IMG/VR virus record: IMGVR_UViG_3300047552_000689
Location: 1 to 56,432 of that record
DNA from: a virus
Length of the DNA: 56,432 nucleotides
Strand: one strand, 5' to 3'
The position numbers and the translations under genes are program-made. Shown one piece after another: positions 36,493 to 48,909 of the stretch (within the stretch, counting starts at the first letter, position 1; the number at the start of each line of letters is the position of its first letter). The notes below the pieces were generated by a model, which had not been told where the DNA came from, made no database searches, and worked only from the letters and a program-made list of their open reading frames with translations.

Positions 36493-38226
36493 ATGTACGG
36501 ACCGCAGACGCCGCTCGGACAGGAGATTCATGCAAACAACTATCGTGAGGAGGGGGAGAGTTTCCGCGAGTACGGCAACCGAGTTGCCAGCGCGCTGACG
36601 GACGGGGCCGACGAGTTCCAACTCTTCCGCGACGACCTGCTCACGCAGCGGACGCTGCCCGGTGGTCGCATCCAGAAGGCGGCGGGCTCGATTCGTGGTG
36701 TCACGATGTATAACTGCTTCGTCTCTGGGACCATCGAGGACAGCTTCGTCTCCGGTCCAGGCAATATCATGCAGGCGCTCACCGAGAGCGTCACGACCAT
36801 GCGCCTCGGCGGTGGCATCGGCTACGAGTTCAGCACGCTCCGCCCCAAGAACGCGCCGATCAAGAAGCTCGGCTCGAAAAGCTCCGGGCCGCTCGCGTTC
36901 ATGGACATGTTCGACGCTGGCTGCGGCTGCGTCAAGTCGGCGGGCGATCGCCGTGGAGCCCAGATGGGCACCTTCGACATCCACCACCCGGACATCATGG
37001 ACTTCATCCACGCGAAGCAGGGGTCCGGTCGCTTCAAGAATTTCAACCTGTCCGTCCTCGTGACCGACGAGTTCATGGCCGCGCTCGACGCGCATCAGCC
37101 CTACGAGCTCCGCTTCGCCGGGGAGAGCTATGGGCAGGGTGATCCCAGGGTAGTGTGGGACGCGATCATGCGGTCGACCTACGACTGGGCCGAGCCGGGT
37201 GTGATCTTCATCGACCGGATCAACCAGCGGAACAACCTGTGGTACGCCGAGCGCATCCGTGCCACCAACCCCTGCGGCGAGCAGCCCCTCCCTCCATACG
37301 GGGCCTGCCTCCTGGGTTCGATCAACCTCACCAAGTTCGCCAACCGGGGCTTCGGTGGCCGCTGGGTGTTCGATTGGCAGGGCCTCGCCCAGGCCGCCGA
37401 GCGGTTCGTCCGCGCCCTCGACAACGTGGTCGACCGCAGCATCTACCCCCTCGAGCAGCAGCGTGCAGAGGCCCTCTCGAAGCGCCGCATGGGCATCGGG
37501 GTGACGGGCCTCGCCAATACCATCGAGGCTATGCTCGGCCGCCCTGCCTACGGCGAGGAGGAGTTCGTCGCCATCCAGGACGACATCCTCCGCACGATCG
37601 CCGAGGCCGCCTACAACACCTCCGTCGACCTGGCGAAGGAGCGCGGTCCCTTCCCGCTCTTCGACCGGGACAAGTACCTCTACGGAAACGAGGAGGCCTT
37701 CGCCCAGAGGCGGCTTCCGGAGTGGCTCAAGGAGAAGATCTGGAAGCACGGCATCCGGAACAGCCACCTCCTCTCGATCGCCCCGGCTGGCACGATCTCC
37801 ATCGTCGCGGACAACGTGAGCTCGGGCGTCGAGCCTGTGTTCCTCCACCGCTACGACCGGACGGTCATCACCCCTGCTGGGACCAAGGTCGAGACCGTCG
37901 AGGACTATGGCGTCCGGGTGTTCGGCATCGAGGGCAAGACGACCGAGCATGTCACCGTGGACGAGCACCTCGCCGTGCTGGCGAAGGCCGCCGAATGGGT
38001 TGACAGCGCCGTGTCGAAGACCGTCAACATCCCCGAGTCGTACGACTTCGAGGACTTCAAGAAGGTCTACCGCAAGGCCTACGATCTCGGGGCCAAGGGC
38101 TGCACGACCTTCCGCACTGGCGGGAAGCTCCAGGGCATCCTGCAGCCGACCAAGGAGGAGCCGAAGGAGGAGGCCGTCGAGGCCTGCTTCATCGACCCGG
38201 TGAGCGGCAAGCGCGAGTGCGCCTAG
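36493..38226 (+). CDS. nrdJ: Class II (adenosylcobalamin-dependent) ribonucleoside reductase (577 aa)
   Basis: Converts ribonucleotides to deoxyribonucleotides using B12 without a separate radical subunit. Visible: YNCFVSGTIEDSF (Cys near 75), then NPCGEQPLPPYGACLLGSINLTKF (active-site Cys near 261, Glu two residues on), LSIAPAGTISIVADNVSSGV EP, and C-terminal CTTFRTGGKLQGIL with a final Cys pair region (ACFIDPVSGKRECA). Start at 36493 follows AAGAGGTTGGGAA; in-frame ATGs at 36445 and 36463 lack that. No oxygen or small-subunit gene is nearby, as expected for class II. Cobalamin must come from the host. Confidence 0.88.
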   Translation: MYGPQTPLGQEIHANNYREEGESFREYGNRVASALTDGADEFQLFRDDLLTQRTLPGGRIQKAAGSIRGVTMYNCFVSGTIEDSFVSGPGNIMQALTESVTTMRLGGGIGYEFSTLRPKNAPIKKLGSKSSGPLAFMDMFDAGCGCVKSAGDRRGAQMGTFDIHHPDIMDFIHAKQGSGRFKNFNLSVLVTDEFMAALDAHQPYELRFAGESYGQGDPRVVWDAIMRSTYDWAEPGVIFIDRINQRNNLWYAERIRATNPCGEQPLPPYGACLLGSINLTKFANRGFGGRWVFDWQGLAQAAERFVRALDNVVDRSIYPLEQQRAEALSKRRMGIGVTGLANTIEAMLGRPAYGEEEFVAIQDDILRTIAEAAYNTSVDLAKERGPFPLFDRDKYLYGNEEAFAQRRLPEWLKEKIWKHGIRNSHLLSIAPAGTISIVADNVSSGVEPVFLHRYDRTVITPAGTKVETVEDYGVRVFGIEGKTTEHVTVDEHLAVLAKAAEWVDSAVSKTVNIPESYDFEDFKKVYRKAYDLGAKGCTTFRTGGKLQGILQPTKEEPKEEAVEACFIDPVSGKRECA

Positions 38227-38306: not shown

Positions 38307-38660
38307 ATGCCTGACGAACAATACCCAGGAATGCGCTCGCATCCAGGCTATCATCTGCTGCGTCAAGAGAAGCGACAGCTTGGAGATCTAATCTGGGATC
38401 TCAAGAACGGCGCCATCTACAAGTGGGATATCAACACCCCCTCTGGCCAGTCGTACTTGGCGAAGCTCCGGAACCAGGTTCGCCTGCTCCATATCACACA
38501 CCGCTACTTGCGCGGTCGCACGTATCGCGGCTGCGAGAGCAAGACGCACAACCGACTCTCGAACGAGTGGGTGGCGCGCATCGAGTTCCTTGCCAACCTC
38601 TACGGCGGGCCGCTCCACGGCGACATGCCTCCCGTGTCCGAGTGGGTCAAGGCCAACTGA
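38307..38660 (+). CDS. Hypothetical protein upstream of hypermodification island (117 aa)
   Basis: AGGGAAAC precedes ATG 38307. The product is basic and rich in Tyr/His/Arg (HPGYHLLRQEKRQLGDLIWDLKNGAIYKW..., LLHITHRYLRGRTYRGCESK), suggesting a nucleic acid-associated protein. No family recognised. Its stop overlaps the next start (TGATG). Confidence 0.65.
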   Translation: MPDEQYPGMRSHPGYHLLRQEKRQLGDLIWDLKNGAIYKWDINTPSGQSYLAKLRNQVRLLHITHRYLRGRTYRGCESKTHNRLSNEWVARIEFLANLYGGPLHGDMPPVSEWVKAN

Positions 38661-39235
38661 TGCTGAAGCCGATTCTCATCGGGCAGGCCCCTGGGCCGAA
38701 CACCGACCCAGCCCTCCCGCTATTCCCGCTCCCCAGCACATCCGCTGGGGGGCGGCTCTGCTCTGTCATGGGGCTCTGCTACAAGGACTACATCCGGCGC
38801 TTCGATCGCGCCAACGTCCTCGTCGAGTTCCCAGGGAGGCACAAGCGGGATGACAAGTTCCCGCTCCGTGATGCCAAGCTCGCCGCTCGATCGATGAAGC
38901 AGCTCCTCAAGGGCCGTCATGTCATCCTAGTCGGCCGCAACGTGGCAGCGGTGTTCAACGTGCTGGATCTCCCATTCCACCACGCGAGCGAATATCACGA
39001 TTGGTGCAAGACTCTCGCAGTCGTGCCCCACACCAGTGGTCGCAATCACTGGTACAACTCCGCTGCGAATCGTGAGGAGGCCCGGAGATTCTGGCTTCAA
39101 CACATTCCGGCTATTCTTGACACTAAGCTGTTGCTTTCGGCTGTCAGCCGGGGCACTTATATGCAACACCCGGTGCTGGGTGAGACAGGAGCAAGCTATG
39201 ACGACAGTCACGTATCAGGGCATCCAGTTCACTGA
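38660..39235 (+). CDS. Uracil-DNA glycosylase superfamily-like protein (191 aa)
   Basis: N-terminal LIGQAPGPNTDP...LPSTSAGGRLCSVMGL is the family 4-type UDG motif 1 layout (GxAPGxxxxxxxxPF..SGxxL), with G8-Q9-A10-P11-G12. The middle has VILVGRNVAAVFNVL (strand and helix), and the C-terminal motif VVPHTSGRNHWYN matches the HPSxxN-like loop. It lacks the FeS cysteines of true family 4. In the hypermodification setting it could act on modified or unmodified pyrimidines, or be a non-catalytic reader. Overlaps the next gene by 38 bases. Confidence 0.68.
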   Translation: MLKPILIGQAPGPNTDPALPLFPLPSTSAGGRLCSVMGLCYKDYIRRFDRANVLVEFPGRHKRDDKFPLRDAKLAARSMKQLLKGRHVILVGRNVAAVFNVLDLPFHHASEYHDWCKTLAVVPHTSGRNHWYNSAANREEARRFWLQHIPAILDTKLLLSAVSRGTYMQHPVLGETGASYDDSHVSGHPVH

Positions 39236-39755
39236 ACAGATGCTCCAGGAGGAGAAGACCTCCGACCTGCTGAAGACCTACAACCGCATCGCCGAGGCGA
39301 ACGACGAGAAAGTCGTCAACAAGTTCGCCGACCACGCGACCGCTGTGAAGCGGACGTGGGCCATGCTCCAGAAGCACGGCAAGTCCGTGAAGAAAGAGGT
39401 CAAGGTCGCCACCGAGCGTCGTCTCCGGACGAAGCACTTCAACTATGTCGCAGTCGGCCAGCCCAAGCCTCGCCGCGAGTCCAGCGCCGACAACCCGGTG
39501 CTGCGCGACATGCTGCTGACTCGCCTGCTCACGCCAGAGGGCCTCAGCTTCAACCAGGCCAAGGAAGTCGTCGCCGAGTTCGACGAGCTTCGCGAGCGCC
39601 TCGGCAAGCCCGTCCGCAACGGCGGCGAGCATACCGTCGAGACGCGGGCCTACGAGGGCCTCCGCCTCATCCACTACTATCTCAACTACTCCCTGAAGCA
39701 GGACGGCGAGGGCGACGACGCGCCCATCCGCATCGTCGGCAACAGGAAGTCGTAG
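39198..39755 (+). CDS. Hypothetical protein in the island (185 aa)
   Basis: ACAGGAGC precedes ATG 39198. The start region (TYQGIQFTEQMLQEEKTSDL LKTYNRIAEANDEKVVNKFADHATAVKRTWAML) is helical, with a basic linker KVATERRLRTKHFNYVAVGQ PKPRRES. The second half (MLLTRLLTPEGLSFNQAKEV VAEFDELRERLGKP) is helical. The N-terminal FADHATAVKRTWAMLQ pattern resembles small DNA-binding domains in other phage proteins. No named family. Confidence 0.65.
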   Translation: MTTVTYQGIQFTEQMLQEEKTSDLLKTYNRIAEANDEKVVNKFADHATAVKRTWAMLQKHGKSVKKEVKVATERRLRTKHFNYVAVGQPKPRRESSADNPVLRDMLLTRLLTPEGLSFNQAKEVVAEFDELRERLGKPVRNGGEHTVETRAYEGLRLIHYYLNYSLKQDGEGDDAPIRIVGNRKS

Positions 39756-40633
39756 TGCGGAACTACCAGCGCCTGAGCATCGAGGACTTCGGCGCGCATC
39801 TTCTCAAGACGGGCGACCTCGACCCGATCTACATCGCACTGCAGCGAATGCGACTCCCCGCTGGCCAGCTTCATCGCTGGCTGGCGGCCTACTGGTGCTT
39901 CTACCACGCGGGCGTCGCCTGCCACATGTCCGAGCTCCAGGGCGAGGACTACTGGCGTGAGATGCAGACAGCCACCGAGAACGTGCTCCCCGCCCCTCCT
40001 GGGACGAGGTGGCCCAGAGGTCACGAGCGTCGCCACTTCAGGGGCGAGCAGGGCAATCTCGCCATGCTGAGCCTCCGGTCTCGCTATCCCAACGACGCTG
40101 ACGACTGGCTGCTGACGATCCAGGAGAAGGCGCTTTCCAAGACTGGCACAGGCGCGCATGTACCATTCTCCACGATCTCCGAGATTGTGCAGGAGGAGCG
40201 CGGCTTCGGCCCTTGGATCTCGTTCAAGGTCGGCGACATGCTCGAGCGACTCGACCTGCTCAAGGTAGACTTCACCGAGGCCGAGGTGTTCATGTTCAAG
40301 GACCCCAGGGAGGCCGCGTTCCGGCTCTGGCGGGTCAAGGCTGGGCTGAGCGAGCACGCAATTCCCAAGAATCCTGGTGGTGTCATCACCGATGTGGTGA
40401 CCTACCTGACCGAGCACTTCAAGGACCACGCGGCACCGCCCCGCAAGGAGCGCCCTGTTGGTCTGCAAGAGGTCGAGACGATCCTCTGCAAGTGGAAGTC
40501 CCACATGAACGGACACTATCCGCTCTTCAACGACACGACTGAGATCCGCGCAGGCCTGCTCGAGTGGGATCACACGGAAACTGCTCGCCTGATGTTCAAC
40601 AAGATGCCAGAGGTGCATGATGTACTACCGTGA
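39755..40633 (+). CDS. Putative amino acid:DNA transferase/thymine hypermodification protein (292 aa)
   Basis: GTG start at 39755 overlaps the previous stop. The section LAAYWCFYHAGVACHMSELQ GEDYWREMQTATEN...PPGTRWPRGHERRHFRG (about residues 43-94) resembles the family I know as amino acid:DNA transferase (ADDT) in thymidine-hypermodifying phages. Later parts (ISEIVQEERGFGPWISFKVG DMLERLDLLKVDF) are helical. Assignment is by memory of the family and neighbours, not a full alignment. If right, it would attach a free amino acid to activated 5-hmdU in DNA. Confidence 0.6.
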   Translation: MRNYQRLSIEDFGAHLLKTGDLDPIYIALQRMRLPAGQLHRWLAAYWCFYHAGVACHMSELQGEDYWREMQTATENVLPAPPGTRWPRGHERRHFRGEQGNLAMLSLRSRYPNDADDWLLTIQEKALSKTGTGAHVPFSTISEIVQEERGFGPWISFKVGDMLERLDLLKVDFTEAEVFMFKDPREAAFRLWRVKAGLSEHAIPKNPGGVITDVVTYLTEHFKDHAAPPRKERPVGLQEVETILCKWKSHMNGHYPLFNDTTEIRAGLLEWDHTETARLMFNKMPEVHDVLP

Positions 40634-40790
40634 TGAAGGACCAGACTTGACGTGGCTGCTCGCGTTCGTCGTGCTCATGATGATAGGTGCCGTGGTCCTT
40701 GGGACCGACGAGCAAGAGCAGCGCGTCGCCCGTGGCAAAGTAGACCGCGAGAACGTCCTGGTCGTCTATCCAGAGCAGCTTCGCCAATGA
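40617..40790 (+). CDS. Small membrane protein in the island (57 aa)
   Basis: ATG 40617 overlaps the previous gene; AGAGG lies upstream. Membrane segment LTWLLAFVVLMMIGAVVLG (about residues 11-29), then a charged cytoplasmic or periplasmic tail (TDEQEQRVARGKVDRENVLV VYPEQLRQ). Its stop overlaps the next start (ATGA). Function unknown. Confidence 0.6.
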   Translation: MMYYRDEGPDLTWLLAFVVLMMIGAVVLGTDEQEQRVARGKVDRENVLVVYPEQLRQ

Positions 40791-40894
40791 AGTGGTGGAT
40801 GCTCTGGTGGGCTGGCGCGATCTACGCAATCTTGCAGCTAGGCTTCGTCCTTGGGACAGCCTGGATGCTACTTAATGGAGTGAAGCTGCCATGA
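40787..40894 (+). CDS. Tiny membrane peptide in the island (35 aa)
   Basis: MKWWMLWWAGAIYAILQLGF, continuing VLGTAWMLLNGVKLP: a Trp-rich N-terminus and one membrane helix. It starts at the previous stop (ATGA) and ends at the next start (ATGA), so it is fixed by coupling on both sides. Function unknown. Confidence 0.55.
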   Translation: MKWWMLWWAGAIYAILQLGFVLGTAWMLLNGVKLP

Positions 40895-41697
40895 AAATCG
40901 GCATCGTCGGCAACGGCCTATTCGGGTCCATCATCGGGGACACCTTGCTCCGACAAGGGCATGAAGTCCACAGGTACGATATCGTCCGGCCGAACAATGG
41001 CTCGCAACCCGCTGCTTGCCTCATGAAGCCGGGCTGGCTCAGCAAGGTGCCGAGGCTCAACGAGGTCTTCGACCTGCTCGACGAGCTCTATGGCTTGCAA
41101 GAGTTGACCTTCACGGCGAACGGCATGCTCGACTTCCAAGTGAAGTGGGTGAATCCGCGTCGAATCCTTCACCCGCTTCTATGCGCCACAGAGATCTCCC
41201 ATGTCAACACTGATGGTGTGATCGAAGACAAGCGTGGCGTCGAGATCAAGTTCGACCGCGTGATCGTCGCTGCTGGCGTCTGGACCAAGGAGCTCTGCCC
41301 CTGGGTCCCAGTGGAGGCGCGGTGGGGGATGGCCCTGCTCTGGAGGAACCACCAGGAGAGCGTTCTGCCCTCGACGATCAGCCAGTGGGCTCCGTACAAG
41401 CAGCTCATCGGCTTCCAGCGGGGCGACGGTTTCTGGGGCGGCGACGGCAGCGCACTGAAGAGGTGGGAGCACGAGGCCGAGCAGCGCGTCTACGATCGCA
41501 TCTACGACCACTTCGACCTCGGCCCACACCCTGTCAAGTTGATAGGGCAACGACCGTATGTGGCGCAAACTACACCCGGTCACCCCTGCTGGCTAGAGCA
41601 GCGGGACAAGCTGATTATTGCAACAGGAGGAGCGAAAAATGGAACTGCGGCTGCGGGATTCTGTGCTCTCACCATCCGGGAATGGCTCCGTGGTTGA
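40891..41697 (+). CDS. FAD-dependent oxidoreductase, DAO-like (268 aa), putative flavin-dependent lyase of base modification
   Basis: The N-terminal dinucleotide motif MKIGIVGNGLFG (G7-x-G9-xx-G12) is followed by a helix (SIIGDTLLRQGHEVHRYD) ending in an acidic residue, typical of FAD binding. The second FAD-contact segment FDRVIVAAGVW and the C-terminal LIIATGGAKNGTAAAGF are DAO-like. At 268 residues it is shorter than glycine oxidase (about 360). In related systems a flavin-dependent lyase trims an amino acid attached to thymine. It overlaps the GNAT gene by 59 bases. Confidence 0.75.
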   Translation: MKIGIVGNGLFGSIIGDTLLRQGHEVHRYDIVRPNNGSQPAACLMKPGWLSKVPRLNEVFDLLDELYGLQELTFTANGMLDFQVKWVNPRRILHPLLCATEISHVNTDGVIEDKRGVEIKFDRVIVAAGVWTKELCPWVPVEARWGMALLWRNHQESVLPSTISQWAPYKQLIGFQRGDGFWGGDGSALKRWEHEAEQRVYDRIYDHFDLGPHPVKLIGQRPYVAQTTPGHPCWLEQRDKLIIATGGAKNGTAAAGFCALTIREWLRG

Positions 41698-42166
41698 GCT
41701 CGGACGACCCATCGTCTGCACCTTCGCCAAGCCGACCGACCATGTCAAGCTGGTGAAGCTCGCCAAGACGAGCCCCTACACGAGCCACTTCAGCAACCGG
41801 ATCATGTTCTCGAGTGACGCGGCCTACGCCAAGGGCTGGATCCGCATGCTGTACGACTCGGCCGACCCCGACAACCCGATGGCGCTCACCTGCGTCCGGC
41901 ACAAGTCGCGCGAGCCCAAGTCGACGGCGCTCTACTTCCTGGTGGTCCGGCCCGACCTGCGCGGTCGAGGCTACGGCGACTTGATGATCTTCGACCTGGT
42001 GCAGCAGTCACCATCCAAGATCATCCAGCTCAACGTCGCCAAGGACAACGAGTCGGCCATCCGCTTCTACAAGCGTCACGGATTTGATACCATCGGAGAG
42101 TCGTTGTACGACAAGGACGGCAAGCCGCATGGTTGGCTCATGGAGTTGAAGAGTGCATCCGATTGA
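41639..42166 (+). CDS. GNAT family N-acetyltransferase (175 aa)
   Basis: CAGGAGGAGCG precedes ATG 41639. The acetyl-CoA loop is RPDLRGRGYGDLMI (about residues 104-117, R-x-R-G-Y-G), preceded by the beta4 strand STALYFLVV and followed by IIQLNVAKDNESAIRFYKRH GFDTIGES, the classical beta5/alpha4 of GNATs. It probably acetylates an amine. Its gene overlap with the FAD enzyme and position in the island suggest the substrate is an aminated thymine in DNA, which is inference. Confidence 0.82.
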   Translation: MELRLRDSVLSPSGNGSVVELGRPIVCTFAKPTDHVKLVKLAKTSPYTSHFSNRIMFSSDAAYAKGWIRMLYDSADPDNPMALTCVRHKSREPKSTALYFLVVRPDLRGRGYGDLMIFDLVQQSPSKIIQLNVAKDNESAIRFYKRHGFDTIGESLYDKDGKPHGWLMELKSASD

Positions 42167-42458
42167 CAAGTTCCGCAAAGAAGCAGTAGAGTCCCACCTG
42201 TTCGTCTCTGACCGCGAGGTCGAGTCGTTCATCGAGGGCACACTCGCCTCTCGTCGCGTCTCCTACCGCGCGCAGGAGTTGACATACCCAGAGGCTCAGC
42301 TAGGTGATGACCTGCTGGAACTACTGGAGCAGTTGAAGGGAATACGTGATGATCATCAACTTGAGAGGGACCTCGGGCTCAGGGAAATCCACCCTGATGC
42401 GCCACGTCATGGACTGCTACACCGGATCAAGGCTGCGCTTCAAGCGCGATGGTCGTAA
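42153..42458 (+). CDS. Hypothetical island protein overlapping the kinase (101 aa)
   Basis: GTG 42153 with TGGAG upstream. The N-terminal 60 residues (HPIDKFRKEAVESHLFVSDR EVESFIEGTLASRRVSYRAQ) are plausible; the C-terminal third overlaps the kinase start by 110 bases and may be constrained only by the other frame. No family recognised. Confidence 0.55.
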   Translation: MHPIDKFRKEAVESHLFVSDREVESFIEGTLASRRVSYRAQELTYPEAQLGDDLLELLEQLKGIRDDHQLERDLGLREIHPDAPRHGLLHRIKAALQARWS

Positions 42459-42924
42459 GCAGCCTCTGGGCTACCTCCTGGGACGTGGTGACAACGTCGA
42501 GCCGGGCAAGTCGCTCTTCATCCCAGGGCACTACGAGGTGGCCTGTGGAGGCTGCGACACGCTAGATGGCTATGACACGATCTACGGCCTGGTCCGCACG
42601 GCCCACGCCGCTGGACACGATGTCCTCTACGAGGGCCTCCTGATCAGCGGCGAGAGCGCCCGGCCGATCGCCCTGCACAACGAGGGCTACCCGATCCAGG
42701 TGATCGCCCTCAATACACCAATCGACGTCTGCATCGACTCGATCAACGCGAGGCGGCAGGCGAAGAAGGGGCCGGACGCGCCTCCGGTCAAGGAGCGCAA
42801 CACGATCGCCAAGGCGCGGGCGGTAGAGATCGCAATGGAGAAGATGAAGGAGGCAGGAATACCATGTCAATGGGCAAGTCGGGACGACGCGCTAATCCTG
42901 ATAAGGAACGCGCTCAGAGTATGA
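42349..42924 (+). CDS. P-loop kinase, probable 5-hmdU DNA kinase (191 aa)
   Basis: Walker A GTSGSGKST spans residues 7-15, at the very N-terminus (MIINLRGTSGSGKSTLMRHV). The lid-like region VACGGCDTLDGYDTIYGLVR TAHAAGHDVLYEGLL contains a Walker B-like DVLYEG. A substrate region (NTPIDVCIDSINARRQAKKG) follows. Small DNA or nucleotide kinases of this type phosphorylate 5-hydroxymethyl-dU in DNA of thymidine-hypermodifying phages. Start at 42349 after GAAGGGAATACGTG. Confidence 0.75.
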   Translation: MIINLRGTSGSGKSTLMRHVMDCYTGSRLRFKRDGRKQPLGYLLGRGDNVEPGKSLFIPGHYEVACGGCDTLDGYDTIYGLVRTAHAAGHDVLYEGLLISGESARPIALHNEGYPIQVIALNTPIDVCIDSINARRQAKKGPDAPPVKERNTIAKARAVEIAMEKMKEAGIPCQWASRDDALILIRNALRV

Positions 42925-43082
42925 ACAACACCCCGCTCGCACGGATCGTGTGCGGGCTTCAAGCACAGGTGAAGACGATGGAGCGCCAGCTCCGCCGCCA
43001 GGATATCGACATCAACAACCTCCGCAAGCAGCTCGACGATTTCAGGCGCGAGCAGAACAGAGGCTACCTGGGCTATGACTGA
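42864..43082 (+). CDS. Small coiled-coil protein (72 aa)
   Basis: AAGGAGGCAGGAATACC precedes ATG 42864 inside the kinase end. The product has a basic N-terminus and a coiled-coil stretch (LQAQVKTMERQLRRQDIDINNLRKQLDDFRREQN, about residues 33-66). A shorter start at 42921 is possible. Function unknown; perhaps a partner of the following enzyme. Confidence 0.55.
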   Translation: MSMGKSGRRANPDKERAQSMNNTPLARIVCGLQAQVKTMERQLRRQDIDINNLRKQLDDFRREQNRGYLGYD

Positions 43083-43950
43083 CACGTTCGAGAAGAACAT
43101 CGAGGGCTTCTTCTGGCTGGCGCGAGAGCGGCAGGAGATGAAGCGCAAGCGGGAGGCCTACCTGCCTCCCCCTTGGACCAAGGACTACGTGCTGGCCAAC
43201 TATCGCTTCTGCAACGTGCACAGACGAGACGACAAGGTCAGCGCGTGGATCATCGACAACATCTACGAACCGCTGCATGGCTCTCCAGCCATCTTCATGG
43301 CAGCCTATGTGGCACGGTGGTTCAACAAGATCGAGACGCTCGACCTCATCAAGGATGAGATGAAGGGCGAGTTCGACCTGATGCGGATGAAGGAGATCCT
43401 CCACCCCGTCTTCAGCCAGGGCAACCCGATCTTCGGCTCGGCCTACATCATTCAGAGCCCCACCGGGGAGAACAAGCTTGACGGCATCCTCTGGGCGATC
43501 GGCAACGTGACCAAGCGGTGGACCGAGGGCTACAAGATCGCCACCGAGACCAAGTCCATGGCACAGACGCACGCTTGGCTCCAGCAGTTCCCCCACATGG
43601 GGCCATTCATGGCGTATCAGGTGGTCTGCGACCTGACCTACACGCCGATCCTCGAGAACGCGGTCGACAAGATGGAGTGGACCTGCGCTGGCCCAGGAGC
43701 GGCCCGAGGCCTGGGGTGGCTCTACCACGACCTCGAGGGGGCCTTCAACTACAACGGGGCCAAGGACCAGCTCATCATGAAGGCGCACATGCACGAGGTG
43801 CTAAAGTTGAGCCAGCAAGAAGTCTACTGGCCTAGCATTTGGGGTGCGTGGGAGTTGGCCACTGTTCAGCACTGGTCCTGCGAGTACGACAAGTGGAGGC
43901 GTGGCCACAGTGGCCAGTCTCTGAAGCGGAGGTATGAAGCATGTACGTGA
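43075..43950 (+). CDS. Thymine hypermodification enzyme with RFCNVxRxDD motif (291 aa)
   Basis: YRFCNVHRRDDKVSAWI (residues about 43-59) is the hallmark of phage proteins that I recall annotated either as 5-hmdU DNA kinase helical domain or as alpha-glutamyl/putrescinyl thymine pyrophosphorylase. The central region ETKSMAQTHAWLQQFPHMGP FMAYQVVCDLTYTP contains an HhH-like glycosylase-type element (FPHMGPFMAYQV). The C-terminus is AGPGAARGLGWLYHDL... The activity (DNA kinase partner or amino acid transferase) cannot be set from sequence alone. Starts one frame within the previous stop. Confidence 0.75.
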   Translation: MTDTFEKNIEGFFWLARERQEMKRKREAYLPPPWTKDYVLANYRFCNVHRRDDKVSAWIIDNIYEPLHGSPAIFMAAYVARWFNKIETLDLIKDEMKGEFDLMRMKEILHPVFSQGNPIFGSAYIIQSPTGENKLDGILWAIGNVTKRWTEGYKIATETKSMAQTHAWLQQFPHMGPFMAYQVVCDLTYTPILENAVDKMEWTCAGPGAARGLGWLYHDLEGAFNYNGAKDQLIMKAHMHEVLKLSQQEVYWPSIWGAWELATVQHWSCEYDKWRRGHSGQSLKRRYEACT

Positions 43951-44984
43951 TCGAGGGGCGCAACGCCCAGTCTATCCTGCCAGAGGCGATCCGCCTTCTG
44001 GACATCCACGGAGTCGACCGTGACAGCCGAAACGGCCCGGTGCGCATGTTCCCCATGCCCGCCGCGATCGTCTACGCCCGGCCGACCGAGCGTGTGATCT
44101 TCTGGGAGGAGCGGGATGCAAACCCGTTCTTCCACTTCATGGAGTGCCTGTGGATGATCAACGGGCGCAACGACGTCGCCTGGCTCGACACCTACAGCGG
44201 TGGCATCAAGCGGTACAGCGACGATGGCAAGACCTACCACGGGGCCTACGGTCACCGCTGGCGTCGGCACTTCCAGATGGACCAGCTCATGATGGCCGTC
44301 GAAGAGCTGAAGCGCGACCACAACAACCGTCGCGTCTACATCGCGATGTGGGATCCTGAGTACGACTTGGCCAAGGAGGGGAAGGACTTCCCCTGCAACG
44401 TGGGCCTCACCTTCCAGGTGAACTTCCTCGGGGCGCTTGACATGGTCGTTCACAACCGATCCAACGACCTGGTCTGGGGCGCGCTCGGCGCGAACGCGGT
44501 GCACTTCAGCTTCCTCCAAGAGGTGGTGAGCGCGATGGTCGGAGTCCCAGTGGGTGGCTACTGGCAGGTGAGCAGCAATCTCCATGCCTACCACGACACC
44601 TACAAGAAGGTCGAGGTCCTGAGGCACGCGGCACCCGACCCCTACAGCACCTCCCGTCCCTGGGACCCCTACGCCTACACGACCGACCCTGTGGAACCGT
44701 TCCCGATCATGAGCGTGGCCCCAGACGTCTGGTTCCAGGACCTGGGCATATTCATGAAGGAGGGGCCGATCGTCGGCTTCCGCGATCCGTTCTTCAGGCA
44801 GGTGGTCACGCCGATGTACATGGCTCACAAGGCCTACCGCGACCGCACTGATCCTGACCGCCACCATCGCGCAATTGAGATACTGTCGACCCAGTGTCGG
44901 GCATCAGATTGGCGCAAGGCCGGAGTGGAGTGGCTCGAGCGTCGACTGAAGGCCTGGCTCGAGAGTGACAAGGAGCGCCTATGA
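43941..44984 (+). CDS. Thymidylate synthase superfamily, predicted dUMP hydroxymethylase (347 aa)
   Basis: GGAGG precedes ATG 43941. TS-fold motifs: PFFHFMECLWMINGRNDVAW (helix), TYHGAYGHRWR, the catalytic FPCNVGLTFQV with Cys152, RSNDLVWGALGANAVHF with Asn185 in the position that selects the uracil base, and QVSSNLHAYHDTY. An Asp there would suggest dCMP as substrate; Asn fits dUMP. With the neighbouring kinase and transferase genes, 5-hydroxymethyl-dUMP is the likely product rather than dTMP. True thymidylate synthase is the main alternative. Confidence 0.8.
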   Translation: MYVIEGRNAQSILPEAIRLLDIHGVDRDSRNGPVRMFPMPAAIVYARPTERVIFWEERDANPFFHFMECLWMINGRNDVAWLDTYSGGIKRYSDDGKTYHGAYGHRWRRHFQMDQLMMAVEELKRDHNNRRVYIAMWDPEYDLAKEGKDFPCNVGLTFQVNFLGALDMVVHNRSNDLVWGALGANAVHFSFLQEVVSAMVGVPVGGYWQVSSNLHAYHDTYKKVEVLRHAAPDPYSTSRPWDPYAYTTDPVEPFPIMSVAPDVWFQDLGIFMKEGPIVGFRDPFFRQVVTPMYMAHKAYRDRTDPDRHHRAIEILSTQCRASDWRKAGVEWLERRLKAWLESDKERL

Positions 44985-45205
44985 GACTGCTAAAGCTATT
45001 CACTGTCGACATTCTCACGTTTTGCGCGTGGCTCCTCCTGTTCTTGATCATGGGTCTCGGCTTCGCGCTGATATCGAGCTCGCTGTTCAGCACAGCCTTC
45101 CCACTCGCCGGGCTCGTCTACGGCATCCTCGGGTGGCTGGCGGGTGACGCTGTGCGGCCTGTCTACCTCTGGCTCAGGGAGCAGTTCCATGTTGACCAAT
45201 CTTGA
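44981..45205 (+). CDS. Small two-segment membrane protein (74 aa)
   Basis: AAGGAGCGCCT precedes ATG 44981, which overlaps the previous stop. Two hydrophobic stretches (ILTFCAWLLLFLIMGLGFALI; FPLAGLVYGILGWLAGDAV) and a charged C-terminus. No family recognised. It overlaps the next gene. Confidence 0.6.
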   Translation: MRLLKLFTVDILTFCAWLLLFLIMGLGFALISSSLFSTAFPLAGLVYGILGWLAGDAVRPVYLWLREQFHVDQS

Positions 45206-45764
45206 CATCAAGAATCGAGCCTACGCCATCCTCGGCGCTCGCGCTGGTGGACGAGTGGAGCGGTGCCACAGCATCCCACACCAGGGCTCCTACAGCAACG
45301 CCGCCCACTCCTGGGGCGTCGCCATGCTCATGCAGCAGATCTGGCCGGAGGACTTCCCTCGGCTGGCACTGGCCTGCCTGACCCACGACATTCCAGAGTT
45401 CTGGGTGGGCGACATTCCCGCGCCGACGATGCGCGCGGTCCCAGGGTTGAAGGAGTCCCTGGTGCAGATCGAGGACAGGTGCCTCGAGCGCCTCGAGCTC
45501 CCTGGGCTCGTGAACTTGAGCGAGGAGGACTACCGGAAGCTCAAGGCCTGTGACTGGCTCGAGTTCTGGCTCTGGTGCAAGGATCAAGAGTACATCGGCA
45601 ACGGCTTTGTCAAGGTCTCCAAGATCGAGATCGAGAGCTACATCGAGACGATGAAGCTGCCGAACCCGGCGGACTGGCTCTACGGAGTGCTGAAAGACAT
45701 GGACCCCCTGGTCTCCCAGGGGCCTGTCCTGCGCGACATCATCGGGAGGATGCAAGATGGGTGA
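45189..45764 (+). CDS. HD-domain phosphohydrolase, YfbR-like (191 aa)
   Basis: Metal-binding HD residues: H27/H31 region, H40 (NAAHSWG) and H66-D67 (CLTHDIPEFWVGDIP). YfbR-type enzymes dephosphorylate deoxynucleoside monophosphates. In a phage replacing thymine, removing host dTMP or other nucleotides would favour the modified base (inference). GGGAGCAGTTCC precedes the start at 45189. Confidence 0.8.
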   Translation: MLTNLDIKNRAYAILGARAGGRVERCHSIPHQGSYSNAAHSWGVAMLMQQIWPEDFPRLALACLTHDIPEFWVGDIPAPTMRAVPGLKESLVQIEDRCLERLELPGLVNLSEEDYRKLKACDWLEFWLWCKDQEYIGNGFVKVSKIEIESYIETMKLPNPADWLYGVLKDMDPLVSQGPVLRDIIGRMQDG

Positions 45765-46342: not shown

Positions 46343-46867
46343 ATGCCAATTCGTGACGGCAACATGCCGATTCAAATGCCGCGTCATCGCAAGCAAGCAG
46401 AGTGCGACAAGAGCAAGACGCAGAGAATCAAGTGGCGGACATCTACCATCGGTCAGCTCGCCAAGGTGATCGCCCACGCGGCTGCAGTCTCCAAGGCTGG
46501 CAGCCAGGACGCTCTCCTGCGGAAGCGGGATTGGGCCAAGGAGTTCGGTGTCACAGGAGCCTACCTCCTGCATGTCACCTTGTTCTTCCTGCCTCAGTTC
46601 GAGCGGGAGATGGAGCGGGCCTACCCCGAGATCAGCCCCAGTGAGCGGATGGTCGTGGTTGCGAGGCAGCTTCGGCATCGAGTGTACTACATGTATCACA
46701 AGGACGAGGATGTCGCGACACTGACGGGCAAGCATGCCATCCCGCAGATCAGCGACGAGCATCCGCAGCACGCCTTGATCACCAAGACCAGGTGCTTCAC
46801 TCCCGAGAACATCGAGCTCGGTGAGCGTATCTGGGCCAGGGGCCTCCCGTATCGCCTGGAGAACTAA
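46343..46867 (+). CDS. Hypothetical protein before DNA polymerase (174 aa)
   Basis: GAAGGAGG precedes ATG 46343. The basic N-terminus (MPRHRKQAECDKSKTQRIKW R) is followed by a helical middle (LLRKRDWAKEFGVTGAYLLH VTLFFLPQFEREMERAY). No named family. It ends one base before the polymerase start. Confidence 0.62.
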   Translation: MPIRDGNMPIQMPRHRKQAECDKSKTQRIKWRTSTIGQLAKVIAHAAAVSKAGSQDALLRKRDWAKEFGVTGAYLLHVTLFFLPQFEREMERAYPEISPSERMVVVARQLRHRVYYMYHKDEDVATLTGKHAIPQISDEHPQHALITKTRCFTPENIELGERIWARGLPYRLEN

Positions 46868-48909
46868 TGGCCAAGAAGTCGACAATGCGCAGCGTGGGCG
46901 GGCTTCAACTCCCGCTCATCGCTCCTGAGTGCACGTGGAAGATCCCGAGCCTCTCAGACCTCCCGCCTGATTGGAACGTCTCGAAGCGAGTCGGCTTCGA
47001 CGTGGAGACCAGGGACGAGGACCTGAAGACGCTGGGCATCGGCGTGCGCCGTCCTGGGAACTACATGGTTGGCTACAGCTTCGCCTTCGAGGACGGGCCG
47101 AGCTACTACGTCCCGCTCCGTCACGAGGGCGGTGGCAACATGGAGCACACCGAGGCGGCTCTCCAGTATCTCCGCGACCAGACTCGGAACTACAAGGGCA
47201 TCGTCGTCGGGGCGAACATACAGTACGATCTCGACTACCTCATGGAGGAGGGCGGGAACTTTGACCAGGCCAAGTGGATTCGAGACGTCCAGATCGCCGA
47301 TCCGCTCATCTACGAGCTCCACCAGTCCTACTCCCTCAAGTCCATCGCCGAGCGCCTGAGCGTCGGCACCAAGGACCAAGCCATGCTGGAGGAGGCGGCG
47401 CGGGCCTACGGTCTGGACCCCAAGAACGGCCTCTGGCGCCTCCCTGGGCAGTACGTGGGGCAATACGCCGCCACCGACGCGGCCCTCCCTCTGACTATCC
47501 TGCGCCTTCAGGAGCGGCGCATCGACGCTATGGACCTCTGGGACATCTACAACCTGGAGTCCCAAGTCACGCCCGTGCTCGTGAAGATGAGGCGGCGGGG
47601 CATCCGGATCGACTTCCAGCAGCTCGAGACCATGGAGAACTGGGCCTCGGAGGAGGAGCACAAGGCTCTGAACGAGGTCGAGCGGATCACTGGCTACCAA
47701 GTCGGCTTCGGCAACGTCTGGAAGTCGGAGGCGATGGCAGAGCCTCTCCGGAGGATCGGCCTCACAATCCCGGTGACGGCCCAGGGGAAGGACTCGATCG
47801 ACAAGGACTTCATGTCCGGGATCGACCACCCGGTGGCCAAGCATCTGGCTCGCGCCCGCAAGGTGAACAAGCTGAGAACGACCTTCGCCGCGTCCGTGCG
47901 ACGGTACATGGTCAACGGTCGCATCCACTGCACCTTCAACCAGATTCGCGGCGACGAGGGCGGTGCCCGGTATGGTCGCCTCTCCTGCTCGGACCCGAAC
48001 CTCCAGCAGCAGCCCTCGAGAGACGAGTTCGCCAAGCCCTGGCGGAAGAGCTACCTCCCCGAGGAGTGGGGCCTCTGGTGCTCGAACGACTACAGCCAGC
48101 AGGAGCCTCGATGGACGACGCACTTCGCCGCGTCGTTCCCGTTCGACCACGCTCATATTCGAGAGTCAGCTCTCAGGGCGGCCAAGGTCTACAACGACGA
48201 CCCGAACGCTGATAACCATGACATGATGACCCGCATCGTCTTCGGTGACGAGTGGGTGGCCCAGGCCGACAAGGACGCCTACAAGGCGGCGCGGACGAGC
48301 TGCAAGATCATCTACCTCGGCCTGTGCTACGGCGAGGGCGGGGCCAAGCTCTGCGATGACCTCGGCCTCCCGACGCGGTACGCGGTGGCCTACAAGGATG
48401 TCAACCGGACGCGCGTGATCGAGTACTTTGAGACCGAGGCCGACGCCTTCCGCCGGAACAACGAGGTGGCAGGCTTCTGCTGGCGCGCGGCTGGCGAGGA
48501 GGGACAGCGCATCCTCGACCAGTTCAACGAGAACGCGCCTCACATCGGAGCTCTGGCCAAGGAGGCCACCAAGATCGCCGATGGCCGAGGCTACATCACC
48601 ACCATCCTCGGACGCCGCCTCAACTTCGAGCCAGAGAGCGGTGGCAAGGGTGGCTACAGGTGGACTCACAAGACCCTGAACCGCATCATCCAGGGCTCCT
48701 CGGCCGACCAGACCAAGAAGGCCATCGTCGAGATCGACCGGGCCGGGCATTTCGTCCAGCTCCAGGTCCACGACGAGATTGCCTGCACCGTCAAGGATGA
48801 GAGCGAGGCGCGGGCCATCGCGGATATCATGCGCACCTGCGTCCCGGCGCTCGTGCCGTTCAAGGTTGACACAGAAATCGGCTCCTCCTGGGGCCATAGC
48901 ATGGGATGA
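46867..48909 (+). CDS. polA: Family A DNA polymerase with 3'-5' exonuclease (680 aa)
   Basis: Replicative polymerase. Exonuclease motifs: VGFDVETRDED (ExoI), GANIQYDLDYL (ExoII), QYAATDAAL (ExoIII YxxxD). Polymerase motif A CSNDYSQQEPRW (Asp near 410), motif B RTSCKIIYLGLCYGEG (about 477-492) and motif C QVHDEIA (about 633). In motif B the position equal to E. coli Phe762 is Leu. No 5'-3' exonuclease domain. Preceded by CTGGAG. Flanked by primase-helicase genes downstream, as in many phages. Confidence 0.93.
   Translation: MAKKSTMRSVGGLQLPLIAPECTWKIPSLSDLPPDWNVSKRVGFDVETRDEDLKTLGIGVRRPGNYMVGYSFAFEDGPSYYVPLRHEGGGNMEHTEAALQYLRDQTRNYKGIVVGANIQYDLDYLMEEGGNFDQAKWIRDVQIADPLIYELHQSYSLKSIAERLSVGTKDQAMLEEAARAYGLDPKNGLWRLPGQYVGQYAATDAALPLTILRLQERRIDAMDLWDIYNLESQVTPVLVKMRRRGIRIDFQQLETMENWASEEEHKALNEVERITGYQVGFGNVWKSEAMAEPLRRIGLTIPVTAQGKDSIDKDFMSGIDHPVAKHLARARKVNKLRTTFAASVRRYMVNGRIHCTFNQIRGDEGGARYGRLSCSDPNLQQQPSRDEFAKPWRKSYLPEEWGLWCSNDYSQQEPRWTTHFAASFPFDHAHIRESALRAAKVYNDDPNADNHDMMTRIVFGDEWVAQADKDAYKAARTSCKIIYLGLCYGEGGAKLCDDLGLPTRYAVAYKDVNRTRVIEYFETEADAFRRNNEVAGFCWRAAGEEGQRILDQFNENAPHIGALAKEATKIADGRGYITTILGRRLNFEPESGGKGGYRWTHKTLNRIIQGSSADQTKKAIVEIDRAGHFVQLQVHDEIACTVKDESEARAIADIMRTCVPALVPFKVDTEIGSSWGHSMG

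Follow-up and report, generated by a model that had tools for sequence, protein, structure and literature searches.

What base is made by the compact set of DNA modification genes found in a 56,432 bp virus record of IMG/VR (IMGVR_UViG_3300047552_000689; G+C = 61.7%)? The record was analysed over its full length, which is termed here the window. The genes lie at positions 38660–45764 and were seen in an original prediction, made by inspection of the DNA letters, as a thymidine hypermodification island of the kind present in phages M6 and ViI. The island very probably encodes a pathway of the type found in phage PaMx11, which would lead to acetylated 5-aminomethyl-deoxyuridine (5-aminomethyl-dU or 5-NmdU) in DNA. 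Many of the thymidines in the phage DNA are predicted to be converted.

The six open reading frames (ORFs) named in the original prediction are all present where it placed them, on the + strand, as are the other window genes given below with coordinates. Every inferred step of thymidine hypermodification has a corresponding gene. The ORFs are tightly packed, with intergenic gaps of −59 to +1 bp and the exception of 182 bp between the GNAT and kinase genes. Small ORFs aside, seven genes spanning 39755–45764 match PaMx11 gp46–gp52 (NC_028770; Mesyanzhinovviridae, Abidjanvirus) one-to-one and in identical order. These are the amino acid:DNA transferase (ADDT; 48% identity), flavin lyase (36%), GNAT acetyltransferase (40%), P-loop kinase (50%), HMUDK_hel protein (40%), thymidylate synthase (TS)-fold enzyme (50%) and HD-domain protein (37%), followed in both phages by a family A DNA polymerase. 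The compactness noted earlier stands, but the gene combination is not new, and a new gene order was rejected, as content and order in PaMx11 are identical. Likewise, the comparison with M6 and ViI was right as to the kind of pathway but not as to the closest type, which is PaMx11 gp46–gp52 by gene order and by the best solved-structure matches. By homology, the island is a new and divergent example of the PaMx11-type pathway, with its glycine transfer, flavin lyase and acetyltransferase, rather than a pathway of a new kind. Chance is excluded by the E-values and by the gene order kept in PaMx11 and in IMG/VR contigs.

Enzyme activities are assigned by homology, most strongly for the ADDT and flavin-lyase steps, because solved structures of homologues are deposited under those names. 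The ADDT (39755–40633), predicted to be glycine-specific, falls inside the ADDT family (PF18724, E 1e-19) and matches PDB 8z2m, ‘Glycinyltransferase’ (E 3e-82). It also has 49% identity to M6 gp51. In the ADDT tree the window protein is within the M6/PaMx11 clade (support 95/96), and the ViI and phiW-14 proteins are outside it on very long branches. This position favours glycine, without being decisive. The flavin-dependent lyase (40891–41697), recognized earlier as a flavin adenine dinucleotide (FAD) protein, is predicted to yield 5-aminomethyl-dU by cleavage of the glycine adduct. It matches PDB 8z2o, ‘Flavin-dependent lyase’ (E 7e-37), and phrog_16743 (E 3e-36), has 39% identity to the lyase of Rhizobium phage RHph_TM26, and keeps the invariant residues and conserved motifs of the flavin-lyase alignment. 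There is also weak similarity to the glycine oxidase ThiO. The two PDB entries are presumably PaMx11 gp46 and gp47. These two proteins reportedly make N-alpha-glycinylthymidine and 5-aminomethyl-dU. An exact precedent for the flavin chemistry is offered by tRNA modification, where MnmC carries out a flavin-dependent carboxymethyl removal from 5-carboxymethylaminomethyluridine (cmnm5U; PMC9626948). The MnmC flavin domain performs the same chemistry as is predicted for the lyase, but its substrate is tRNA. The pathway paper (Wen et al., 2024; PMC11472151) is cited against phage PaMx11 in PMC11946847.

The GNAT acetyltransferase (41639–42166; PF00583, E 6e-11) is predicted to acetylate the 5-aminomethyl group. 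Its identification holds, with the correction that the start codon is ambiguous: the ATG at 41639 has a strong Shine–Dalgarno sequence, and the alternative GTG at 41690 is a better fit to homologues. The protein has 46% identity to the GNAT of phage Epa5 and is encoded directly after the lyase, a PaMx11-like position. Among 50,697 phage records, GNAT homologues were found in 15 (E 1e-5) and the flavin lyase in 18. All 15 GNAT-bearing records are among the 18 with the lyase, and on this basis the GNAT is assigned to the hypermodification pathway. It is directly downstream of the lyase in the loci examined.

Phosphorylation of 5-hydroxymethyl-deoxyuridine (5-hmdU) in DNA is attributed to a pair of proteins. 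The P-loop kinase subunit (42349–42924) has the Walker A motif GTSGSGKST and matches PF06414 (E 1e-6) and phrog_800; a PDB sequence search with it gave nothing useful. Both PHROGs and RefSeq phage records label the phrog_800 family ‘terminase small subunit’, which is apparently a misannotation passed on between records. The helical partner (43075–43950), with 29% identity to M6 gp55, falls inside the HMUDK_hel family (PF18723, E 2.7e-49), and the RFCNVxRxDD hallmark noted earlier is present as RFCNVHRRDDK. Both this protein and the ADDT are thereby placed in the families that the original prediction required of them. The name ‘aGPT-pyrophosphorylase’, listed in the original prediction beside the HMUDK-helical and ADDT families, is an older GenBank-record name for these same protein families.

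The TS-fold enzyme (43941–44984; PF00303, E 4.8e-20; phrog_5131, E 1e-123) is a predicted deoxyuridine monophosphate (dUMP) hydroxymethylase, with 52% identity to the M6 TS. The uracil-selecting Asn, recognized from the start, is N185; the Asn in a thymidylate synthase of known structure (chain 4fog) aligns with it. Both N185 and the catalytic Cys, C152, are kept in 31/31 phage homologues. Two further genes have predicted roles in the pathway. The YfbR-like HD-domain phosphohydrolase (45189–45764; PF12917, E 1.8e-7) may be a remover of competing thymidine mono- and triphosphate (dTMP/dTTP). The family A DNA polymerase (46867–48909; NCBIfam PolA-type matches; 52% identity to PaMx11 gp55) would be expected to copy hydroxymethyl-dUTP (hmdUTP) into DNA.

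The proposed pathway would begin with conversion of dUMP to 5-hydroxymethyl-dUMP by the TS-fold enzyme, with the HD enzyme possibly draining dTMP/dTTP. The phage polymerase would then insert 5-hmdU opposite A, and the P-loop kinase together with HMUDK_hel would phosphorylate the hydroxymethyl of chosen residues in DNA. Displacement of the phosphate by the amino group of glycine, via the ADDT, would give N-alpha-glycinylthymidine. The flavin enzyme would cleave off the carboxymethyl part to leave 5-aminomethyl-dU, and the GNAT would acetylate the amine to produce the N-acetyl form. The early steps have a parallel in phage phiW-14, in which hmdUTP is formed from dUMP, a dTTPase appears such that dTTP is lost, and modification follows polymerisation (PMC5977210). 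The purpose of the modification is probably resistance of virion DNA to restriction; for related modified phages, measurements show that many of the type II restriction enzymes, a large proportion, are resisted (PMC6449724).

Several points weigh against this pathway. The end product is deduced from gene content in a phage known from metagenomic contigs alone, and the glycine specificity of the ADDT is extrapolated from a clade in which few proteins have been tested. In the tree, moreover, the fork that puts the window inside the M6/PaMx11 ADDT clade is unresolved, and the long ViI and phiW-14 branches bear on this as well. In a near-identical contig, L001 (99.98% identity to the window over 9,307 bp), codon 253 of the ADDT gene (window position 40511, L001 position 623), inside a conserved motif, reads as a stop. 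This raises the question of whether the island is a decaying remnant and no modified base is made in the lineage. Such decay is very improbable. Every gene of the window copy is fully open, and catalytic motifs are intact at 36–50% identity to PaMx11, which requires long purifying selection. Since L001 and the window differ at just one other site, and there synonymously, the stop may reflect a variant or an error of assembly. A different final base, 5-(2-aminoethyl)-dU (5-NedU) as in M6 or 5-(2-aminoethoxy)methyl-dU (5-NeOmdU) as in ViI, is scarcely to be expected. The M6 case draws on the ADDT similarity and on ribonucleotide reductase (RNR) and uracil-DNA glycosylase (UDG)-like genes that are M6-like. 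Indeed, M6 (Yuavirus) shares the ADDT, P-loop kinase family, HMUDK_hel, TS, HD, RNR and UDG-fold genes with the window. However, M6 has radical S-adenosylmethionine (radical-SAM) and pyridoxal phosphate (PLP) enzymes, gp52 and gp53, where the window has the flavin lyase and GNAT. Neither matches any window ORF, and an M6-type pathway was therefore rejected. The ViI type was set aside, as the ViI ADDT is too remote from that of the window to place and nothing positive points there.

The acetylation step can also be doubted. The pathway could end at 5-aminomethyl-dU, with the GNAT acting on something else, such as a protein of the host or a metabolite resembling an antibiotic. The GNAT family is versatile, weaker NCBIfam matches of the window protein include RimI and other acetyltransferases, its substrate is predicted, and several lyase-bearing gene clusters have no GNAT. 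An unrelated target is nevertheless unlikely: phage GNAT homologues are confined to genomes with the flavin lyase, and clusters without GNAT usually have another predicted amide-forming enzyme beside the lyase.

This other enzyme came from a wider survey. An IMG/VR scan with a single HMUDK_hel sequence recovered the near-identical contig alone, and wider recovery of relatives needed alignment queries. With the flavin-lyase alignment as query, IMG/VR yielded 31 loci, and the ADDT/FAD/kinase/HMUDK_hel/TS neighbourhood is kept in most of them. After near-identical pairs were merged and GenBank relatives added, there were 31 distinct clusters. A GNAT is present in seven and an Amidoligase_2-like protein in 16; eight have neither (some are fragments) and none has both (Fisher p 0.0024, shared ancestry being ignored). 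The amidoligase is beside the flavin lyase in L006, L030–L035, L038, L040–L044, L049, L053 and L056, and is placed before the lyase in L033, L043 and L053, where the lyase is ahead of the ADDT. Amidoligase clusters mostly also carry a low-molecular-weight (LMW) phosphatase. One amidoligase was modelled with AlphaFold (pLDDT 83.7), and the model shows the glutamine-synthetase/glutamate-cysteine-ligase fold; the match has a VIA Z of ~10, with the matches listed all of that superfamily, and a Foldseek E of just 1.6e-3. On the ADDT tree, the GNAT and amidoligase labels need four changes each, which suggests exchange, although the labels predate the fuller amidoligase count and are a rough guide.

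Tentatively, and with the odds slightly against it, the position after the lyase can be looked at as a swappable cap slot acting on 5-aminomethyl-dU. The cap would be acetyl, added by the GNAT, in the seven clusters, and a carboxylic acid, whether an amino acid or one of another kind, joined by the amidoligase, in the 16, which would give larger amide-linked hypermodifications. To our knowledge, no such larger amide-linked thymidine hypermodifications have been described. In the open literature searched, which did not cover the main pathway paper, there was no prior report linking an amidoligase to thymidine hypermodification. If the cap-slot reading is true, the window represents one state of a modular system with the end group swapped between phages. 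An enzyme after the lyase that is either an acetyltransferase or of the carboxylate-amine ligase fold, never both, predicts as yet untested DNA bases, and the comparison gives direct access to the ways in which phages diversify the group that restriction enzymes encounter. In addition, the PaMx11 pathway is extended to a divergent lineage, with diverged copies of each enzyme available for work on mechanism and specificity.

Other relatives vary around the same core. Epa5 (NC_052964) has the ADDT-FAD-GNAT-kinase-HMUDK_hel-TS order of the window but, unlike the window, no HD homologue was detected after its TS. It was also the sole match when GenBank phages were searched at the DNA level with the island, through 0.6 kb of the TS gene at 73% identity. 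RHph_TM26 shares the ADDT, flavin lyase, kinase, HMUDK_hel, TS and class II RNR, but its lyase is ahead of the ADDT, an additional small P-loop protein is encoded in between, and there is no GNAT. This small protein (L004:1228–1719) is a possible further tailoring enzyme, as is a PF18757 ‘nucleotide modification’ protein in the cluster of phage Sonora (L007:7588–8298).

Outside the island, the window terminase large subunit has 60% identity to its PaMx11 counterpart, and the replication block (helicases, polymerase, primase) has the PaMx11/M6 order. These two features would fit a place in Mesyanzhinovviridae, the family of PaMx11, but the capsid and most tail genes are largely unrelated and have no match to PaMx11 counterparts. 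Where PaMx11 has NrdA/NrdB, the window has NrdJ, a class II (B12-dependent) RNR for nucleotide supply (36493–38226, start possibly 36424; TIGR02504, E 2.8e-148), with 54% identity to M6 gp46 and likewise to the RHph_TM26 protein. The genome, as judged by its genes, is that of a divergent phage and is called mosaic because its class II RNR is like that of M6 and RHph_TM26 and unlike that of PaMx11.

The island interval also holds genes beyond those first named: the HD phosphohydrolase, a UDG-fold gene and small ORFs. The UDG-fold protein (38660–39235; motifs GQAPG and PHTSG) is an addition relative to PaMx11, with no counterpart found there in the comparison. It has 60% identity to M6 gp48, and relatives are annotated as uracil-DNA glycosylase. 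A PDB sequence search gave nothing useful; with a structure model (pLDDT 82.6), the best Foldseek match is UdgX (E 6.9e-5). The protein may handle uracil or 5-hydroxymethyluracil in phage DNA. Homology ends near residue 150, and the C-terminal 40 residues are perhaps not conserved.

A small protein (39198–39755) is at the position of PaMx11 gp45 (25% identity to the gp45 region, E 2e-5), and a small ORF (42921–43082) lies between the kinase genes. Three small ORFs encode predicted membrane proteins: 40617–40790, which overlaps its neighbours and is outside the known pathway, 40787–40894, of only 35 amino acids, and 44981–45205. No match to them was found in the compared stretches of PaMx11, M6 and Epa5. 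They are found between the ADDT and lyase and after the TS, which differs from PaMx11, and all three are set into the island via short overlaps.

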